A stretch of 64,000 nt of DNA. It comes from Saksenaea vasiformis B4078. Lineage: Eukaryota; Mucoromycota; Mucoromycetes; Mucorales; Saksenaeaceae. Under the pieces are notes generated by a model. The model ran no database searches and had not been told where the DNA came from. It saw only the letters and a program-made list of their open reading frames with translations. Location: NCBI GenBank assembly GCA_000697055.1, contig JNDT01001912.1, positions 124,001-188,000 on the forward strand, read 5' to 3'. This document shows positions 4,922-43,806 of the stretch, piece by piece. Positions within the stretch are counted from its first letter, which is position 1, and each line of letters starts with the position of its first letter. The position numbers and the translations under genes were made by a program.

Positions 4922-5799
4922 AGCGTCGGAAGAAAGCATAATTAGGATTCGTTTCATAAGGTAACAAGTGAATTTTTACAGCTGCTACGGAAGAATTCGT
5001 GTCTCACGGTAATGATGTTCAGTCCTTGCCCCACCCCCCACGGAGAAAATGTTTCGGGATAGCGACAACAATGCATGAGAAACATGTCAAGAAGACAAGG
5101 TTTATCCCGAGTTCCACAGGATTCTCAGTAGTTCATATGAATGTCAGGTGCTGGCTCTTTGTTGGGGAGGAGGAGCTAGAACAAACGACCTCAGTCTACA
5201 TCAATTATATGATAATAATTAGAGTATTATTGCTTTGTCATCACATGAAGTAATCGTTTTGTTCAGGGGGGAAGCTCAATACATTATTTCCAGCAATCAA
5301 TGTCGTAACTATTCAAAATTAATGTCGCTGGCCAATCAAAATCGATTTCGTACCTTCAGAAATGAAAAGTCATGTTAGCTGTTTCACCCTCCGTGCCCCT
5401 GGGGGAAAGGTCTCCAGATCTTTGGTATAGAAAGAAAAAGATATGCTGGATAAGGTTCGGCAGTTCCAATGTTATTTGAAATCCAGTTTCATGAAGCGAC
5501 GGCCAGTTACATCGTTGCTGCTATACTGAGCAAAAAAAGATCCTTCGCTGTCGTAGAAATCCCTGAGAAACACTAAGAGTAAGACGTTGCAGAATATACA
5601 ATGGATAAAAATGAACATGCTTGGACAATAAAACGTACAATATGATGCAGTGAAAGATGATACGTCAAAGAGAAATGTATCTCGGTGCAATCCACTACAA
5701 AACGGGCACCATGACAAAGGTGGATATCGCAAGATAAATTTCGAGTGCAAGGATATAATTTGAAACGAGGGGCATTACAAGACTATGTACCGCTAAAAA
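4922..5799. other. Intergenic, no gene recognised
   Basis: Short open frames on both strands show no recognisable domain or consistent splicing pattern. The sequence leads into the 15-bp periodic array. Nothing else supported. Confidence 0.4.
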
Positions 5800-6500
5800 A
5801 TTCATTGTTTAAAGTGGCGCAAAAAACCATGTGCAAGAAATAGGTACTGCTGAAATAAGGCGACTGCAACACATAGCATAGCAAGAATCCATTGTGGAAG
5901 AAAAAAAATCACTGTAAGGGGTAATGTAAAAAGGGACATAAGCAAAACAAGGTCATCGTAAACAAAGATACATCCACATATGAACTCATGGCAAAAGGAA
6001 AAACGAATCCGCAAAAGAAGGATGGCAAGAAAAAGTATTGTAAGAATTGTGCAAGAAGAAATGTATGCATAAAGAGAAATCATAAAGAAATGGCATCGGA
6101 AGAGTACGCATTTCAGAAAAAAGTGTTGAAAGATGATGCCGTACAAGAAAATGTATTTCAGTAAGACACATTTCAAGAAGACGCGCTGCAAGGATGTTGT
6201 ATGTAAAAGGCTTCATTGCAACACACAGAGCGGAAAGACAACGTTGTGGAAAATCATTGCGAAAAACGTCCACCGTGATATATTCGCAAGAAAATCTAAC
6301 AAAAGAAAAGGTATTGTTTGAAGACGTCGCATGAAGAGAAATACCGCAAGAAATATCTTAAAAGAAATTCGTCCCCAAGGACTAGCTGTAAGAAGAATCG
6401 TTCTCAATAAGAAACGTACTTGAGAGGAAACATTCTCGAGAGACGACATCCTCAAGAACATCTTTCGGAAACAAGAAGACATTGCAAGAGGAAGGCAGTC
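5800..6500 (+). repeat. Diverged 15-bp tandem array (pentapeptide periodicity)
   Basis: Aligning the plus strand in steps of 15 bases puts CAAGAA/AAAGAA-like purine blocks in register for roughly 40 units, with a consensus near CAAGAAAAYGTATTG and occasional 1-3 base slips. The clearest run is 6120-6220, where consecutive units start CAAGAAAATG, CAGTAAGACA, CAAGAAGACG, CAAGGATGTT. Translated in register this reads as degenerate Q-E-(N/D)-x-(L/F) pentapeptides (QENVF, QEDAL, KEKVL) interrupted by many stops. It is either a decayed repeat-protein gene or a diverged minisatellite. Confidence 0.6.
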
Positions 6501-7915
6501 CTGGGTGCGCAACTCTGCGTTGGTTATACGGAGTGAAATTAGATGATTTAAGATCGTGGCCTCTTCCTAGAAATACGGAGCGACATACAGCCAAAGCGAG
6601 TATGGCTTGCCTTCCAAAGTTCGCGCTCAACTGACAACATCACAGCACTTCTGTTGACATCTCACACCGCCCCTTTGTCACTGTCACGCTTCTGTCCTCA
6701 TCTTTGACGATGATGCCCTTGTTTTATCACTTTTCAATAGAATAGGTATCCCATTTCCGACTTAGTCAAATAGCTATAATTATATCGAACACAAGAGATA
6801 AACGCGAGAAAGTTAACTACAAAATCCCATCTTGACTAAGTATGTCTACGAAACCCGTCTTCTTTTGTCATCCACTTGCTCTTAGCCTTTGATACATGGC
6901 TCAAAATAAACGTGTCCGTTGCTCACTATCGACCGATTTATCAACCGATTCATTGATAGACAGACTTTCTGCAGTCGACTTATATTTCAAGTTGTGTGTC
7001 CTTCATATATCACTCACCAACTCAACAACAGTTTGGTACCATTTCAGAAACCTTTCTTCGTAATTGGGTGTCTCTGGATGATCCTGAAGCTGATACAATG
7101 CAGTGCTACCTGCAGCAGTCAGTCCATGACACATGTTAAAGTTTATCACTTCGGGCTTCCACCGATATGACGCTGTGAATTGCTAGGGACAGTACTCCTT
7201 TCCTCTTATATTATACATTCAATTTTCCGGTTCCATCCAATTTTCTCTGCCAACTGCCATCTGGTGCTTGTGAATTATTCATTTATCTTCAAAAAAAAAA
7301 GTTTTGTTCACAGGACAAAGTTGTAACACAAGTCGTGCTAAAAATGGCAGACAAAGGAAAAGAGAAAAAAGACGCATCGGTATTTTAAAAAAATTGTCCT
7401 GCCTAAAAAAGATATGCCCGGCAAAGATACCATTCAACTCTGGCTGTTTGAATAAGAAAGATCCTAGGATAGCTATTCAGGCGTTAACAACAATAGTCGC
7501 AAGCTTTTTATAAGTAGAATACATGTTGTTCAGTTGAGTATAATGTTATAATGAAATCTTCAGTTCCACCATATTTTGACTTTCATTTCCTTTTTGGAAT
7601 TTATTGTCAAAAGATATCTAACGGGATCATGCCTACAAAGTAGGCAAACGTCCTGCTGTTTCTCTTTCAACTCTTCTTACCTTTACTTTCTCCAAATCAG
7701 TTCTTTGACATATTTTCAGACAACAACTTTCAACAACTACAACTTCATATTTAAACGTTTTAGTGAGTATATTCTGGCGGTATGAGTGGGTGATGAAATA
7801 ACCAAAACGTACAAGGACACATCTGTATTCCGAACTGCTTACTACCCGTACCGGTTGTGAGTACAATGCGTACAGCTGCTTATTATATATATTGATTCCT
7901 CTTTTTGCTAGCTTC
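6501..7915. other. Intergenic, no gene recognised
   Basis: Low-information, AT-rich sequence with short open frames and poly-A/poly-T runs. It precedes the XPG-Fanzor locus and might include its left end, but no terminal inverted repeat or target-site duplication could be identified by eye. Confidence 0.35.
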
Positions 7916-10423
7916 ATGGGTCTGAAAGGACTCCATGCGTTTCTGAAGCAATCAGGAGCAACGAGTGTGTGTCATATACCTGATCATCTCCGGCAGCAAC
8001 AGATCAGAATCGTATATATCGATTTTTGCTGCGATTTCTTTTGGCTCCTTCAAGACCACGCTGCCGAATTCTTGCGTGTCACCAGGACCACGCGAGAATC
8101 AGGCCAGCAACAGGAACACTACGCTGACGCTGCCAGACGCTTCGTTGTTCGTGCAATAAGCGAACTAAATTCTTTTGCCAACGGAAGTGGAATCACCAAG
8201 ATTTGTCTGGTCTTCGATGGTGCCCGGTTGCAAGCCAAGAGCGCTACCCATGCTGCAAGACAAGCCAAGAGAAATCTAGCTTTTAAGAAGGCACAAAGAC
8301 TAAGCGGAAGCTTGAGTCGAATATATGATGTGGCAAAGCTTCGTCTCCGTGATAAATATGCCAGGCGGTGGGTCAGCTTTACACCTGCTATCAAGAATGC
8401 GATCATCCAGCAGCTGGATAATCGCCAAGACACTCGACGTTACACCAGTGATTTTGCTAACGAAGAGTCTACAGTATTCATACACCAGGATACGTTCGAA
8501 GCTGATCCAGAAATTGTGTATTTATGTAACACTGTTGGAGACGGTGTCCGTCCTGCCATATTGTCCCGAGATGGTGACTTATTTGCCTACCAGGGCGCTC
8601 TGGATGTTCCTGTAAGTTGCAAAGCAAATCCACTACTCTCTTTAGCACATATATGCTAATTGATATTGCTTATGCATTCTAGCGAATAACAAATATGAAC
8701 TGGCAGCAGGGCCCTCAGCGATACAACGGAAAAGTAGCAACTAAACGGTCCCTTTTGACTGTTTTCATGGGGCTATCAACTGCAATAGCGAATGACCAAG
8801 CTATCAATGTAGGTCCTCGATTGCTACATTTGAAATCGTGTTTACTGATATATTGGATCATAGGCTGAGATCCGTTTTGTCGTTTTGGCGGCTACTTGCG
8901 TAAACGATTATGCCAACAACCTGCGCGGCAAATTGTTCAAAAGGGTCAAGGCAGCACTTGAAGAGCTCCAGCCATTTACTCACGCCGACAGCCTCCTACT
9001 GGCGTTGATGAATAATATCGGCGCTTTTGTGTCAGACTTTCAAATGCACAGATTTAACGTTGCACTCCACCAGTTTTGCCGTCCATATGTTTCCGGAATC
9101 CATTCCCAAGGTCCATTTCATTATGGTCGTCTCCCTCTAGAAGGCGCAGACTCACATATTTTGGAAGATCTCGCTCATCCCGTTGTGAGAGCACCTCCAC
9201 AGCGATCAAACCAGAATCCTGGCTATGGAAGTCGTTACAGGTTGCTCACACCGTCACCCGAGCTTGACCAGGAAGTGATGGAAGAGAAATACTTCGGACC
9301 TCTTGGCCGTAAAGATACAGCCTCTTCTACTAGCAGCGGGACGCAGAGCAGGAGCTCGAAAAAGAGCAGGACTAGACGGGCCGTAGGAGCATCAAAGCGC
9401 CAGATACAATTCATCAAGGATACTGAAAGCGGTGAAATCAAGGATACTTTCCCAGAAAGAGTTTCTTATACGGATCCCGGCAATGGCAAGCGTGTTTCAT
9501 TTCATCAAAATTCCCGATATACTGCTACGGCGGACGCTGGACTTTATTCCTCTATACTAGCTGCTGCTGTCAATAGAGCAAGGAAAAACAATAGAGCCGA
9601 AGCTGAAGGAATAGCTGAGGCATCGCTTATTAACAAGGTTATTGGCAAGATCGTCAACGATATGTCTTATGTTCGTTTTGTCGGCTATCACATCGCCAAT
9701 ATTGCCATACGCGAAGCGTACTACTTGGATAACAATGTCATGTTGGCATTCTATAATCTGTTCTTCCGAAATGGCAAGCGTGGGGCTCAGGATATATGGA
9801 GACATATCCTTTATTGCGCAACAAAATATACACCAATGACAGGACGTGGATCAGGCCTTTCAACACGACAGGCAGCCGAAGCAGCTGTCTTTACAACAAA
9901 CTCGGGCATTTTAGAGACAAACGGCTCCCTACTGGAAGGAAATGATAATCAAACAGACCTTTTCAAGGCCTTTGCGACGGATATTGCTTTCTCCTCTCTG
10001 TCCTCAATGTTAAAACATAATCTGGAGCGAAATATTCTCCTGCAGGCAAGAAAAATATGGTATAAGGACTGCCTGACCGAGATGTGCATGGCACCGACTT
10101 CGATGTATATGGGTGAAATGATCACCGAAATTGCAAATGGATGCAGTATCAACTTTCGCCGAAACATTATTTACAATTTCAAAGATCGTTACTGCGAATA
10201 TATTCGGTCGCGTCCCAAGGAATTGGTTCAAGTACCACTTGGATGGCCTGTCCCAAATGAGGCGATATTTGATACATTTATCAAAGATATTGTCAGTTCT
10301 GTTCGTCATAGAATACTGCCTTCAGCTCTGCAGGAAGCATCAAGACAAGGGTTTCACTACATTGGTGATGCTACCGTTCGCACTCAAGTCGACAAGTTTA
10401 TAACAAACATGGTGCGTCTCTAA
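7916..10423 (+). CDS. XPG/FEN1-like flap nuclease, N-terminal half of XPG-Fanzor locus
   Basis: Divergent structure-specific nuclease. Three exons (7916-8611, 8683-8808, 8864-10423) join in phase 0 with GT-AG borders. It starts MGLKGLHAFLKQ, the usual XPG N-terminus in which glycine 2 packs at the active site. Metal-ligand acids fall at the expected places: D36 (YIDF), D101 (LVFDG), E195 and D197 (DTFEAD), D219 and D221 (SRDGDL), and an aspartate in CVNDYANNLRGK, the position of the DY motif before the helix-hairpin turn. Family knowledge says these seven acids bind two magnesium ions. A further region of about 500 residues has no domain I recognise. The frame meets TAA at 10421 and then stays open in the same frame for about 600 bases, so this stop looks secondary. 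It is probably mobile-element cargo or a mobile-element gene. Confidence 0.72.
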
Positions 10424-12623
10424 AAAAACTCCACGGAGCCATTTGATGAAGCAAAGTGCAGACTTGAGGTCGAAAACAACGCGACTGTACCACCAGGATG
10501 GCCGAAAAACAGAAATAAGCTTATAGCAGCGTTATTTCAAAGAATCTGGGGAATGTCACTTAACCTAAGCGAAGCTGATGCCGACCCGGGAGATTTTGAT
10601 GGTCCCGAGGAACAAGAACAAGAAGGTCAAGCATCCGGCAATATACTTGCTGGCTTAGGACATGATGTTCAGGAACAGATCGAATCCTTCATTGACATTG
10701 AGCGTGGTCTCGAAGTAAAGGGTATCCGGGTATCTGACGTAAATCTGTTTGAATGTCTTGGTGAGACCGGCCCTTCTACTACTGGGAAGCGGAGAAGAAG
10801 CGAGATGGATGAAAACGGCGAAGACAGCGAGGATGATGAGGACGATGTGTTCCATAGAGGTTATAAGGGCAAATTTGCCAAAGCAAAAGGTGCGAAATTG
10901 ATCCCGTTCCTGTATCATTTTCTGGAAAGACGTGGTGGAGGTTTTCAGTCTTTCGTGTTGTGCCCACTTCAAGCGCACCATCAGATAGCTGTCCCTTTTA
11001 ACATCTCATTTGCAAAAACTTTGCTCTAAGAGTATCGAGAATTTGGCTCAACCCATAATCCAGCAAGTAGAGGAGCAACTAGCAAGCGCCCAAACTGTTA
11101 AACAAGCTGCTGCGTTGACCACAGGTGAGTCGGAACTAATATCATACGTAGTTGGGCAAATTCACTTATATCACAGCTGTAGAGATAAATGATCTAAAGA
11201 ATGCATGCACAAGACTCAAAAACATTGACACCAGCGATCCATTCCACGTCCTTTTCGATATTCGTCAGCAAGCTACAATAAGAAGAGATGGCAATGTCGA
11301 TATCAAAAATCGGGGGTATATGCAATGGTTAGACCAGCGCATACCAGAGAATGACAACAAGCTTCGTTTTTCAAGGCGCAGAGTGTTTCGGACAGATGGG
11401 ATCCGCTTGTATTGTATATACAACGACTGGCAGAGAGGACAGTACGGAAATAGCACTTGCAAGCATTTAACCAAGCTGAGAAGAACTACAAGAGAAACGT
11501 TGAAAGAAATCTAGGAGCCTGACTCATCTGCTGATCAGTCCAATTTTCTTCAGCATTACGATGGTGTCATAGTACTTGATTTTGGAGAGGTGTGTGTGCG
11601 GCTGCGAGTGTTTTTAAGCCAACGCAACCGGGAGTGGAAAGCTCCCAACTAGTGATCAAGCGCGCTTATCTCTATGGAAGAAGCATCCCAAACCGGGACT
11701 GGCTGGAAGCTCGTAAGGACGTCAGTAACATTGGCGACATTGAAACTGGTTTGAGCGAAGGATCGAGCAGAAGTACCTATAGCAGATATCAAGAATACCT
11801 CCGACAACTCAAGGAGAATAACAACGGTCTTCAGCTGTGGAACTTCTACTCGAACCGATCTGTATGGCGAAAAACCTGGGATAATGCTATCTCACGAAGA
11901 TCGTGTCTGGACAAAGCCTGCTATCTAATCCTGAACCAAGCGAATCGTACCTTTACCATGAGTAGGGAATTACATCCTGACCGAGTACGTGGGGAGTCTC
12001 GCCCTCTTGTATACGCTTTTGGCCTAGATGGAATGAGCAAAAGATCAAGAAGAGGAGCCCTAGCACCCATGGATCACAAGATTGCCAACGCACTGTATCG
12101 GAAAATAAAGCAACGTAGTCGCGGTCGTGAAAACAAGAATATTGATATCTGTACAAGAGTTGATGAGTACCAAACCTCGAAAGTGTGTTGTTACTGTTCT
12201 AAGCGAGGCAGCGAGCAGCATGTCAGGTTTCTCCGGCGACCACCCATGGTACCAGTGCAAGATGAAGCTCGATTAGAAGGTGGCCTTGAAAAGATGATGA
12301 GAGTAGTCTGTTGTCAGAGTTGTAATCGAGCGTTCCACCGGGATGGCAATGCAGCGGACAACCAGGCGACTATCGCCCAATACATGTTGCAGTTTCAGCA
12401 ACGTCCGCGTTGGTTCATCCGGCCGACAAGACGTCAGGAAGAAGGAAGCGAAGAAGAAACCACAGTGACAGCCAGCGAAGTTCAGACCACGGTTGAACCA
12501 CCCTGGTCTCAGCAAAGCATTTTTCAACAAGCACAGGAAGCAGAATCGTCACAAGAACCACTACGACGATCAGCAAGGCTACAACAGAAAAGACAAAAAA
12601 GGATCCACGAGCCAAGTGGATAG
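10424..12623 (+). pseudogene. Fanzor/TnpB-like RuvC nuclease, C-terminal half of XPG-Fanzor locus
   Basis: Continues the upstream frame through an acidic linker (EDSEDDEDDVFHRG) and, after introns near 10950-11030 and 11124-11176, enters a Fanzor-like region. Visible: VFRTDGIRLYC (cf. the TDG block of Fanzor1), VIVLDFGEV with the RuvC-I aspartate codon at 11578, VYAFGLDGMS, the VDEYQTSKVCCYC and VCCQSC zinc ribbon, and HRDGNAADN with the RuvC-III aspartate codon at 12342. These last three blocks are the diagnostic TnpB/Fanzor C-terminus. Lesions: TAG at 11512 in frame with the RuvC-I segment, and a frame change within GTGTGTGTG at about 11590 that a 2-base contraction would cure. The C-terminal tail is Gln/Glu/Arg rich. 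Fanzors are RNA-guided eukaryotic TnpB homologues; guide use here is inferred. Confidence 0.7.
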
Positions 12624-12636
12624 GGCTTCCACGCCC
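12623..12636 (+). other. Short GC hairpin at the Fanzor-like stop codon
   Basis: GGGC-TTCCAC-GCCC forms a 4-bp GC stem directly overlapping the end of the stop codon. TnpB and Fanzor guide RNAs usually derive from the ORF 3' end and adjacent downstream sequence, so this is a candidate part of such an RNA, but a 4-bp stem alone is weak. Confidence 0.25.
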
Positions 12637-13014
12637 GGTACTTGGTAAGCACTATTGAACCTCCTGGGCCGTTTCATTTCATACTCACCAACCAAATTAT
12701 TCACGCGTCTTGCATGAGCTTGGCGAGGGGCTGGGTATTGCGCTGCTGAAGGTCTAAACAGGTTCGTGGATGCGTCAATTCAAACAATTGCAACACGGCA
12801 GCTCACATCATCCATTAGCATCAAGCTTAGCTTCTCAATTCCGCCAAGCAGATTTGCAAGACGCGACTTTATTTTTTGAAAAAACAGTACATTGTACGCA
12901 TAAAGTAGCCATCAATTTGTGACAAATGCCCAAATTTGTTTTGTCGCGCCGATCTGGTCCACGTCGAAATCGGCCCAGCAAAAAAGTTTACAACTTTCCT
13001 TTTGTCGCGGGGCC
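12637..13014. other. Intergenic, promoter region of LAMTOR3
   Basis: No gene seen. Could include the right end of the XPG-Fanzor element and its guide-RNA region as well as the LAMTOR3 promoter. No terminal repeat identified. Confidence 0.35.
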
Positions 13015-13587
13015 ATGTCACTTGAAAAGACATTTGAACAAGTTTGCCATCGGTTATTTCTCGATGGCTTAAAAGCTGCCATGGTTACCGATCGAGATGG
13101 TGTGGTGATTTTAAAATGTAAAAGAGTTCAATGCTTGTCGACTATGTGATTGTCTTAACGTCTAGTTTCTATTTGTTATGTGCTGTTAGGCCTCAGTGAT
13201 GACGTTTCGGATAAGGTGACCGAGCCAGCCATTGCAACGACATTTACAGTGGCAAACAATCAGGTATGGATAAGATGGGAGTATCGGAACGCTCAACTGG
13301 CGGCTATCCCCCCTTCTCTATTTTTATTTTGAGTTAGGCATCCAAATTAGGCCTTAAACGGAACAAGTGTATTGTTAGCATGTATGACATTTATCAACTT
13401 GTTCAAATGGAGCATAATCCACTGGTAATTACCCTTATTGGTGATGCTGCTGCGAATACAGGTACTAGAACAAATGTTGTGTGGTCAAGATGACTAAACT
13501 ATTTGTCAAGGCCATTTTATGAGTCTGGGACAAAAGATTACGGAAGTAATCCAACCTCTTGTGGATACATTAAATGAGCGACAATAA
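13015..13587 (+). CDS. LAMTOR3: Ragulator subunit LAMTOR3 (MP1-like)
   Basis: Roadblock-fold scaffold of the lysosomal/vacuolar Ragulator complex that anchors Rag GTPases for TORC1 signalling. Four exons: MSLEKTFEQVCHRLFLDGLK plus AAMVTDRDGVVILK; then GLSDDVSDKVTEP...VANNQ; then ASKLGLKRNKCIVSMYDIYQ with VQMEHNPLVITLIGDAAANT; and finally GHFMSLGQKITEVIQPLVD. The DRDG turn, the SKLGL motif, the Tyr-x-x-(Tyr/Gln)-Val-Val/Leu-Gln strand and the final amphipathic helix are all family features. About 120 residues, normal length. The start codon is the first ATG of the conserved helix. It is transcribed away from the XPG-Fanzor locus. Confidence 0.88.
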
Positions 13588-43100: not shown

Positions 43101-43806
43101 ACCGATCTTGTGCGATTTTTATGGCGAAGACGTCCAGAAACTAAAATTTCATAATTATCGTGGGTCCAATGGCGGAATAAAGTACAGAGAAGTCCGAGAC
43201 GGCAGACAAGCCAGCCAAACACTTCGGCCGCTACTTACGAACAATCAATGCGAAGAGACGTTACAAGGCGCGCAAGACGATGGAGACGACGACAGCAACC
43301 TCCGAGTCCACCTGCATCACAGGAAGCAAAATTACAGCAAGTATCCTTTCACTATTACGCATTGATACTGTCGGTCTCACTGCCATTTACGCTGTAGCAA
43401 ATGGAAAAAGGCTCCTACCGACCACGACACCAGCAAGGTGCCTCTCATCGCGTTCGGAGATGCCCAATTTGGGCGTAACCGGTATGGCTCAAAACCCGTT
43501 GGTTTGGCCGATCGTTGCAAACGCCTGATGAAAGAAGCTGAACGAGAAGGGCGGCTGGTGCTAATCAACGTTGACGAATATTGCACTTCACAAGTTTGTT
43601 CAAGCTGCGGTCAACGGGAATTGGAGAACATCAATATTGATGCAAATCAACATTTGCATAGTGTTCTGAACTGTACCAGTTGCGGAACAGTGTGGCAAAG
43701 GGATATAAACGCATCAAGGAACATCCATAGAATTTCATTATTGCACATAATTTCTGGTGAGCGGCTATCCGCATTCAGAAGACCCCCACTGCCACCACAA
43801 CCATGA
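40190..43806 (+). pseudogene. Fanzor1 (eukaryotic TnpB homologue), degenerate
   Basis: Relic of an RNA-guided RuvC nuclease of the Fanzor1 type. In order: basic N-terminus; zinc-binding CPTCLKNNN...SSSHLCPY; TVGDIVNFNREVVIKAHLF with LPPNIFSSHFFTQF; a central region (41156-42590) with in-frame stops near 41461 and 41621; IMTDGCAVSVLFNKPVPE; LWRLNSGVTDV (RuvC-I); SSAEYYVRAGFHKT; LPILCDFYGEDVQKLKFHNY; VPLIAFGDAQFG; VDEYCTSQVCSSC and LNCTSCGTVWQRDINASRNI. The usual RuvC-I aspartate is asparagine (AAT at 42800). A one-base loss after GVTDV, further frame changes at 43150-43440 and the stops show that it is broken. A Tc1 relic lies just upstream. The family assignment is firm; activity is very unlikely. 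Confidence 0.85.

Follow-up and report, generated by a model that had tools for sequence, protein, structure and literature searches.

A decayed gene joining an EXO1/FEN-like and a Fanzor1-like nuclease in a mobile element of Saksenaea vasiformis

Fanzors are under development as eukaryotic genome editors, while their benefit to the transposons that carry them is unsettled. A locus of the fungus Saksenaea vasiformis B4078 raises the question of whether such a nuclease can be joined in a single gene to a second nuclease of the XPG/FEN family. It lies in a 64,000-nucleotide stretch of contig JNDT01001912.1 (positions 124,001 to 188,000, forward strand; hereafter the window), part of contig C428 among the 666 contigs of the 38.7-Mb genome. 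A sequence-only reading had described an XPG/FEN-like N-terminus followed on the same strand, and largely in the same frame, by an acidic linker and a Fanzor/TnpB-like C-terminus. The gene limits that it gave are correct (ATG at 7916, stop codon at 12621-12623, plus strand), and positions 7916-12623 indeed hold one gene, in which a divergent XPG/FEN-family nuclease precedes an unassigned middle part and then WED, RuvC and zinc-ribbon segments of Fanzor type. The gene is decayed and, rather than one open reading frame (ORF), has four exons separated by introns. The acidic linker is present but makes up little of the long middle region, which is common to a protein of Lichtheimia.

The XPG-like and Fanzor-like ends are one gene because a sister copy keeps an open frame across them, because the two parts recur together at 17 of 24 loci of the genome, and because the Lichtheimia protein covers 97% of the query with both. 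In the sister copy, on C238, exon 4 stays open over 481 codons (the count starting at 11179), although its last few residues are out of frame owing to a length change beyond the zinc ribbon; since exon 3 is open there as well, everything from the XPG helical region across the middle part to the Fanzor-like end is read in a single frame that one intron interrupts. When 5.8 billion proteins were searched and the 7997 candidates with the most shared words were scored, two relatives emerged among these candidates. The Lichtheimia hyalospora protein (P0002, 1416 amino acids) is a single open protein with both parts, 35% identical across the query; its model spans the same exon joints and exon 3 of the window matches it over the middle region. 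The Apophysomyces ossiformis protein (P0001, 1036 amino acids) is 55% identical over 76% of the query. Separate genes everywhere are thus not what relatives show, and the proposed fusion stands. As a query, P0002 recovered only itself and the protein of a diverged paralogue on C401 matched no public protein, so the family is either rare in public protein sets or masked there as repeats.

Within the genome, hits merged by hand gave 28 XPG-like loci, four of which end at contig ends; the 24 assessed include C562, whose contig end was not located. At the 17 two-part loci the C-terminal part lies on the same strand, 1.0-3.9 kb downstream, where chance would place it at about 0.003 per locus; one of them (C289) has just the helical piece of XPG. 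Weak C-terminal matches (for example C600, C589, C281, C431 and C124) were excluded from the count. Near-identical copies were counted singly, so the loci are not independent and represent about ten lineages. Diverged paralogues keep the order of XPG part and C-terminal part, and identity to the C401 lineage ranks alike in both: 34-36% for the XPG part of the window lineage (longest matches; shorter pieces up to 40%) with 40-42% for its C-terminus, and ~39-60% by exon piece with 52-64% for the other two-part lineages. Between two paralogue groups, nonsynonymous divergence (dN) was 0.30-0.43 in the XPG exons and 0.26 in RuvC, with synonymous divergence (dS) of 2.3 or not computable. Two XPG-like matches, L022 (C57) and L023 (C567), have identical scores and are likely a recent duplication or an assembly duplicate.

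The window copy itself is dead. Four lesions disrupt it, namely in-frame stops at about 10.42 and 11.51 kb and, at about 11.03 and 11.59 kb, small changes that shift the frame; none of them is shared by any of its four aligned sisters (C376, C238, C395 and C232; 96.5-97.2% identical to it). The sisters have decayed in their own ways: exon 1 is broken in all four, C238 has an additional stop in exon 2, and C395 is broken throughout, with exon 3 open in C376 (761 amino acids), C238 (753) and C232 (745). Exon 1 is open in the window copy and in the C637 and C226 copies, both of which reach contig ends.

By homology, the N-terminal part is probably a divergent EXO1/FEN-family nuclease. Exon 1 translates, in order, into MGLKGLHAFL, YIDFCCDFF, LVFDGARLQAK, FEADPEIVYL and LSRDGDLFAYQG, which is the motif order of XPG/FEN/EXO1 nucleases. 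Two phase 0 introns (GTAAGT...TAG and GTAGGT...TAG) flank exon 2, and the helical-region motif VNDYANNLRG follows at the start of exon 3 (8900-8929). The Pfam XPG_N model matched exon 1 over model positions 1-99 of 101 (E = 0.0016, 19.3 bits; cut-off 22), and XPG_I was found below threshold in the relatives (Apophysomyces 2.1e-4, Lichtheimia 0.018, C401-lineage paralogue 0.0059). As a yardstick, 16 stop-to-stop ORFs of at least 60 amino acids from the 5' 2.6 kb of the element gave no Pfam family over cut-off and partial matches at 0.0056-0.099. Because such noise reaches 0.0056, no single XPG match proves the family, and agreement among relatives weighs more. A four-sequence profile of the XPG part retrieved five Exonuclease 1 sequences from the PDB, which we take to be human, at E = 1.9e-7 to 4e-6, in support of the proposed XPG/FEN-like N-terminus; the remaining matches, including two FEN1s (1.2 and 1.5), were at chance level (0.85 upward). 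Searched singly against the PDB with phmmer, exon 1, the C-terminal ORF and P0002 gave nothing significant, exon 1 ranking Exonuclease 1 third at 0.18.

The acids of VD/ID, DG, EAD, DGD and NDY are retained in every aligned row that covers them, and DG, EAD and D-x-D align with Exonuclease 1; the metal-binding acids compared were those of FEN1, presumably numbered D34, D86, E158, E160, D179, D181 and D233. Some decayed copies (L072) have lost one of the XPG acids. The element's part thus resembles Exonuclease 1, FEN1 and XPG in having the MGxKGL start, VDFC, DG, (A)PFEAD, RDGDLF and NDY in family order, with Exonuclease 1 as best PDB match, and differs from them in being sub-threshold in Pfam, fused to RuvC and carried by a mobile element. 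It is distinct from the five Pfam-positive XPG loci of the genome.

The C-terminal part is Fanzor1-like as judged by its motifs, a placement qualified by a missing DPG fingerprint. PF07282 matched the C-terminal ORF of the window at E = 1.3e-5 and 25.7 bits, just under the cut-off of 26.3, which two paralogues passed (30.3 and 30.4 bits) and C238 (25.6) and P0002 (22.7) missed. A profile of five C-terminal rows placed SpuFz1 first (5.6e-4), followed by TranC (0.045) and PpFz1 (0.32). In these rows, which come from four lineages, the glutamate of VDEY.TS and the aspartate of HRD are invariant, and the first RuvC aspartate is present in all three rows reaching it and in the window. The TDG motif reads RTDG in the window and P0001 and QTDG in L070, with variants TNG in P0002, RTDS in L071 and QMDG in L072. 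In the literature, DPG in RuvC1 is near-exclusive to Fanzors, an alternative glutamate stands just before the zinc finger, and TDG lies in the WED domain (PMC10711439). The proposed Fanzor/TnpB-like C-terminus therefore holds for the alternative glutamate, the zinc ribbon and TDG, but not for DPG.

With Fanzor1 proteins (SpuFz1, PpFz1) the fusion shares the D/alternative E/D set of RuvC, a TNB zinc ribbon, a WED-type TDG, residence in a eukaryotic mobile element and a conserved structured right end overlapping or adjoining the stop codon. It differs by its N-terminal EXO1/FEN-type nuclease, by DFG/DLG in RuvC1 and by its length (~1400 amino acids against ~600-800; PMC10711439), and is known here from sequence alone. 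PpFz1 of Mucorales has a cyclophilin-binding insertion in RuvC (PMC11423790), another kind of accessory than the XPG part.

The gene end coincides with a jump in DNA conservation. In fifty-base steps, identity to the C666 copy is 56-80% over 11840-12589, which is coding, and 84-96% over 12590-12889; the C391 copy shows the same jump (58-88%, then 82-92%, to 12789). In the window lineage the conserved stretch starts at two hairpins straddling the stop codon, and post-stop hairpins of diverged lineages carry paired changes (ATCCAC/GTGGAT, GTCCAC/GTGGAC, GTCCAG/CTGGAC and ATCTAC/GTAGAT). Across ten aligned sequences, 89.8% of cells in the stop-codon hairpins are paired, compared with 26-49% in slid controls. 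Two-sided change affects ten cells, where shuffles average 3.6 (none of 500 reached ten) and slid controls show at most 1; the covariation score lies above all shuffles. Stricter counts were weaker, with 5 pairs showing two-sided change against 3.0 (reached by 48 of 500) and 8 further pair types against 7.6 (275 of 500), and two more lineages have damaged hairpins (C501, part missing; C280, aligning poorly). A scan for the double-hairpin pattern found one match in the window (12623) and one apparent chance match in eight other Fanzor loci.

Folding of 301 nucleotides from the window gave z = -3.66, with none of 100 shuffles as stable. In the right-end alignment of the window lineage, 96.9% of cells are paired and slid controls give 36-41%, such controls being biased towards a structure derived from one of the aligned members; the 2 two-sided cells were reached by 60 of 500 shuffles, so that pairing is strong and covariation weak. 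Many one-sided changes keep G-U pairs. Rfam gave no match over 5000-13500. RNAs of TnpB and Fanzor are transcribed from the right end of the transposon, may overlap the stop codon and have a guide read from the flank (PMC10432273, PMC10711439). The stretch looks like what an omega RNA (right-end RNA, reRNA) would show, although a DNA hairpin would covary too. At one locus (L064, C441:82644-86333), the C-terminal protein is ~35% identical to that of the window, yet DNA identity is 73% over 188 right-end bases.

The gene is the single recognisable one of a repeated element that is so far known from this fungus and two Mucorales genera. Copies are homologous from 5279/5280 onward. Of the 15 aligned, 14, among them the window copy, lose homology at 12888-12890 (the fifteenth, C391, does so at 12832). 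AGTAC stands at the right end in 12 of those 14 and TAC at the left junction in 8 of 10 copies, where RTAC is a candidate adjacent motif for the guided cut. Terminal inverted repeats, judged by eye, are short and imperfect at best, and no target-site duplication is evident in the copies beyond a possible TAC. As is usual for repeats, many copies are cut off by contig ends. Left-end pieces (5295-5376, ~55 bp) also recur alone, two of them, for instance, at 54.7-54.9 kb of C662, and are possibly remnants or non-autonomous derivatives. The MCi-2 elements of Mucor circinelloides are likewise multicopy, with a long (6-kb) Fanzor-bearing 3' region and no recognisable terminal inverted repeats; as described, and unlike the present element, they duplicate 11-12 bp of the target and vary at their 5' ends (PMC3627910). 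The available portion of that paper does not mention an XPG domain, and it describes the N-terminal halves of Fanzor elements in Mucor, Rhizopus and Phycomyces as highly diverged, so an unrecognised member of the family may exist there.

Table 1 Coordinates of the gene, its motifs and its element in the window; splice sites are predicted from sequence
Feature	Position	Strand	Remarks
Repeated mobile element	5280..12890	+	7.6 kb; left end TACAGTATTTCC-like, right end ...AACAGTAC
Exon 1	7916..8611	+	XPG N-region and most of I-region; reading frame open in window copy
Exon 1 acidic motifs	8015; 8213; 8495; 8567	+	YIDFCC; FDG; FEADPE; RDGDLF
Exon 2	8683..8808	+	XPG I-region continued; matches Apophysomyces and Lichtheimia proteins
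Exon 3	8864..11124	+	XPG helical region, then conserved middle region in one frame; one stop and one frame shift
Third intron (predicted)	11125-11182	+	
Exon 4	11183..12623	+	WED-type TDG, RuvC, zinc ribbon; one stop and one frame shift
TDG motif, WED-type (exon 4)	11392-11400	+	
RuvC first aspartate (exon 4)	11578-11580	+	DFG
Alternative glutamate (exon 4)	12159-12182	+	in VDEYQTSK
Zinc ribbon (exon 4)	12186-12197	+	CCYC
RD aspartate (exon 4)	12336-12362	+	in HRDGNAADN
Candidate omega RNA (right-end RNA) scaffold	12594..12890	+	~290 nt, to right end of element; long hairpin 12704-12865
Double hairpin at stop codon	12603..12636	+	ATCCAC/GTGGAT then GGGC/GCCC

We propose, at a probability of roughly 0.4, that the element encodes a Fanzor1-like RNA-guided nuclease with an N-terminal EXO1/FEN nuclease, whose guided cut is followed by resection favouring copy-back by recombination. 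What this builds on, by sequence comparison, is the fusion, the retention of the catalytic acids of both nucleases and a conserved stretch at the gene end that is predicted to fold. EXO1 is a resection nuclease of homologous recombination; judging from the alignment to it, the fused domain may process the ends that the guided cut leaves. The right-end stretch would be transcribed as omega RNA or reRNA with a guide read from the flank, and the Fanzor-like part would cut the matching empty site. The EXO1-like part would then resect or trim the cut ends in cis, and repair would copy the element back by homologous recombination from the sister chromatid, not by end joining. A cut-and-copy proposal made for Fanzors is compatible with such resection (PMC10432273).

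Several observations weigh against this proposal. No fully intact copy was found among the genomic copies read. The C-terminal part was undetected at 7 of the 24 XPG-like loci, at one of which (C580) a C-terminal match lies close by on the opposite strand. Conversely, six C-terminal loci have upstream room yet no XPG match (C666, C391, which has an internal deletion, two on C441, C580 and C419), as do three with undetermined upstream room (C439, C95 and C628); the remaining ones touch or adjoin contig ends. The P0001 gene model is partial: it starts some 105 residues into the XPG part and has no zinc ribbon. All XPG matches in Pfam, across four relatives, stay under the curated cut-off, and the second cysteine pair of the zinc ribbon is incomplete in P0002. 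In RuvC1 the Fanzor DPG is absent, the three rows reaching it having DFG or DLG (DFG in the window and P0001), and the C401 copy reads DFV. This departure is not unique to the fusion, since eight other Fanzor-type loci of the genome, read by eye, have DPG in five cases, DLG in one (L008) and neither in two. For the resection step, the resemblance to EXO1 is the sole support.

The fusion could instead be real and RNA-guided, with the XPG part making or trimming the guide RNA, or a strand of the R-loop, rather than DNA ends. Enzymes of the FEN/XPG family work on 5' ends that are structured or contain RNA, and some nuclease must release the putative RNA from the mRNA, whose end it overlaps. The RuvC of TnpB processes its own RNA, however, so a second nuclease is not required; our observations fit trimming and resection alike, and we consider guide processing unlikely. 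An equally improbable role for the XPG part is that of a mobilising nuclease which replaces a transposase and acts on terminal hairpins or inverted repeats, the right-end structure being a DNA hairpin instead of a guide RNA. In its favour, the 7.6-kb element yielded no other transposase, and its ends are short imperfect repeats with a long hairpin on the right. Transposase-less Fanzor elements are known, however (PMC3627910, PMC10432273), the G-U pairs kept by many one-sided changes suit RNA better than DNA, and the hairpins start at the ORF end like some omega RNAs. The XPG part might also be a non-catalytic passenger with a structural or DNA-binding role, which would agree with its weak model match and with the acid lost in L072, but the acidic motifs persist across lineages of just 35-40% identity, which makes this quite unlikely. 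Two adjacent genes of one transposon joined by gene prediction alone are highly improbable: although the gene has predicted introns, the C238 copy can be read without a break from the XPG helical region across the middle part and, past one short intron, to the zinc ribbon, and the Lichtheimia model crosses the same joints.

Simpler candidates were rejected: a chance match, because independent relatives agree; two genes merely side by side, by the C238 frame and P0002; and an ordinary host XPG gene beside the element, because the five Pfam-positive XPG loci lie elsewhere.

No fusion of Fanzor/TnpB with an XPG/FEN/PIN nuclease was found in the full-text literature, where related papers were judged by title and which excludes subscription papers and Repbase. 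A natural fusion of EXO1/FEN type suggests that some elements steer the repair of the guided cut and, if true, would set a precedent in nature for coupling programmable cutters with enzymes that process the ends. The occurrence of DFG together with the alternative glutamate in a Fanzor1-like protein is also relevant to the single origin that has been proposed for Fanzors. More speculatively, and with distinctly low confidence, eukaryotic OMEGA elements might include a third kind, to which this one would belong: a cut-and-resect transposon, complete in itself, whose RNA-guided RuvC nuclease brings its own EXO1-like nuclease, so that each guided cut is committed to homologous recombination and copying back needs no transposase.

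The genome as a whole is rich in Fanzors, with at least 137 PF07282 matches, and none of its eight best PF07282 loci lies on a contig carrying an XPG-like match. The window contains a second Fanzor-type zinc-ribbon match, at 43525-43725 (E = 5.5e-13), in an open frame of 146 amino acids; no XPG-like match was found near it, and copies of equal score lie on C29, C33 and C74.

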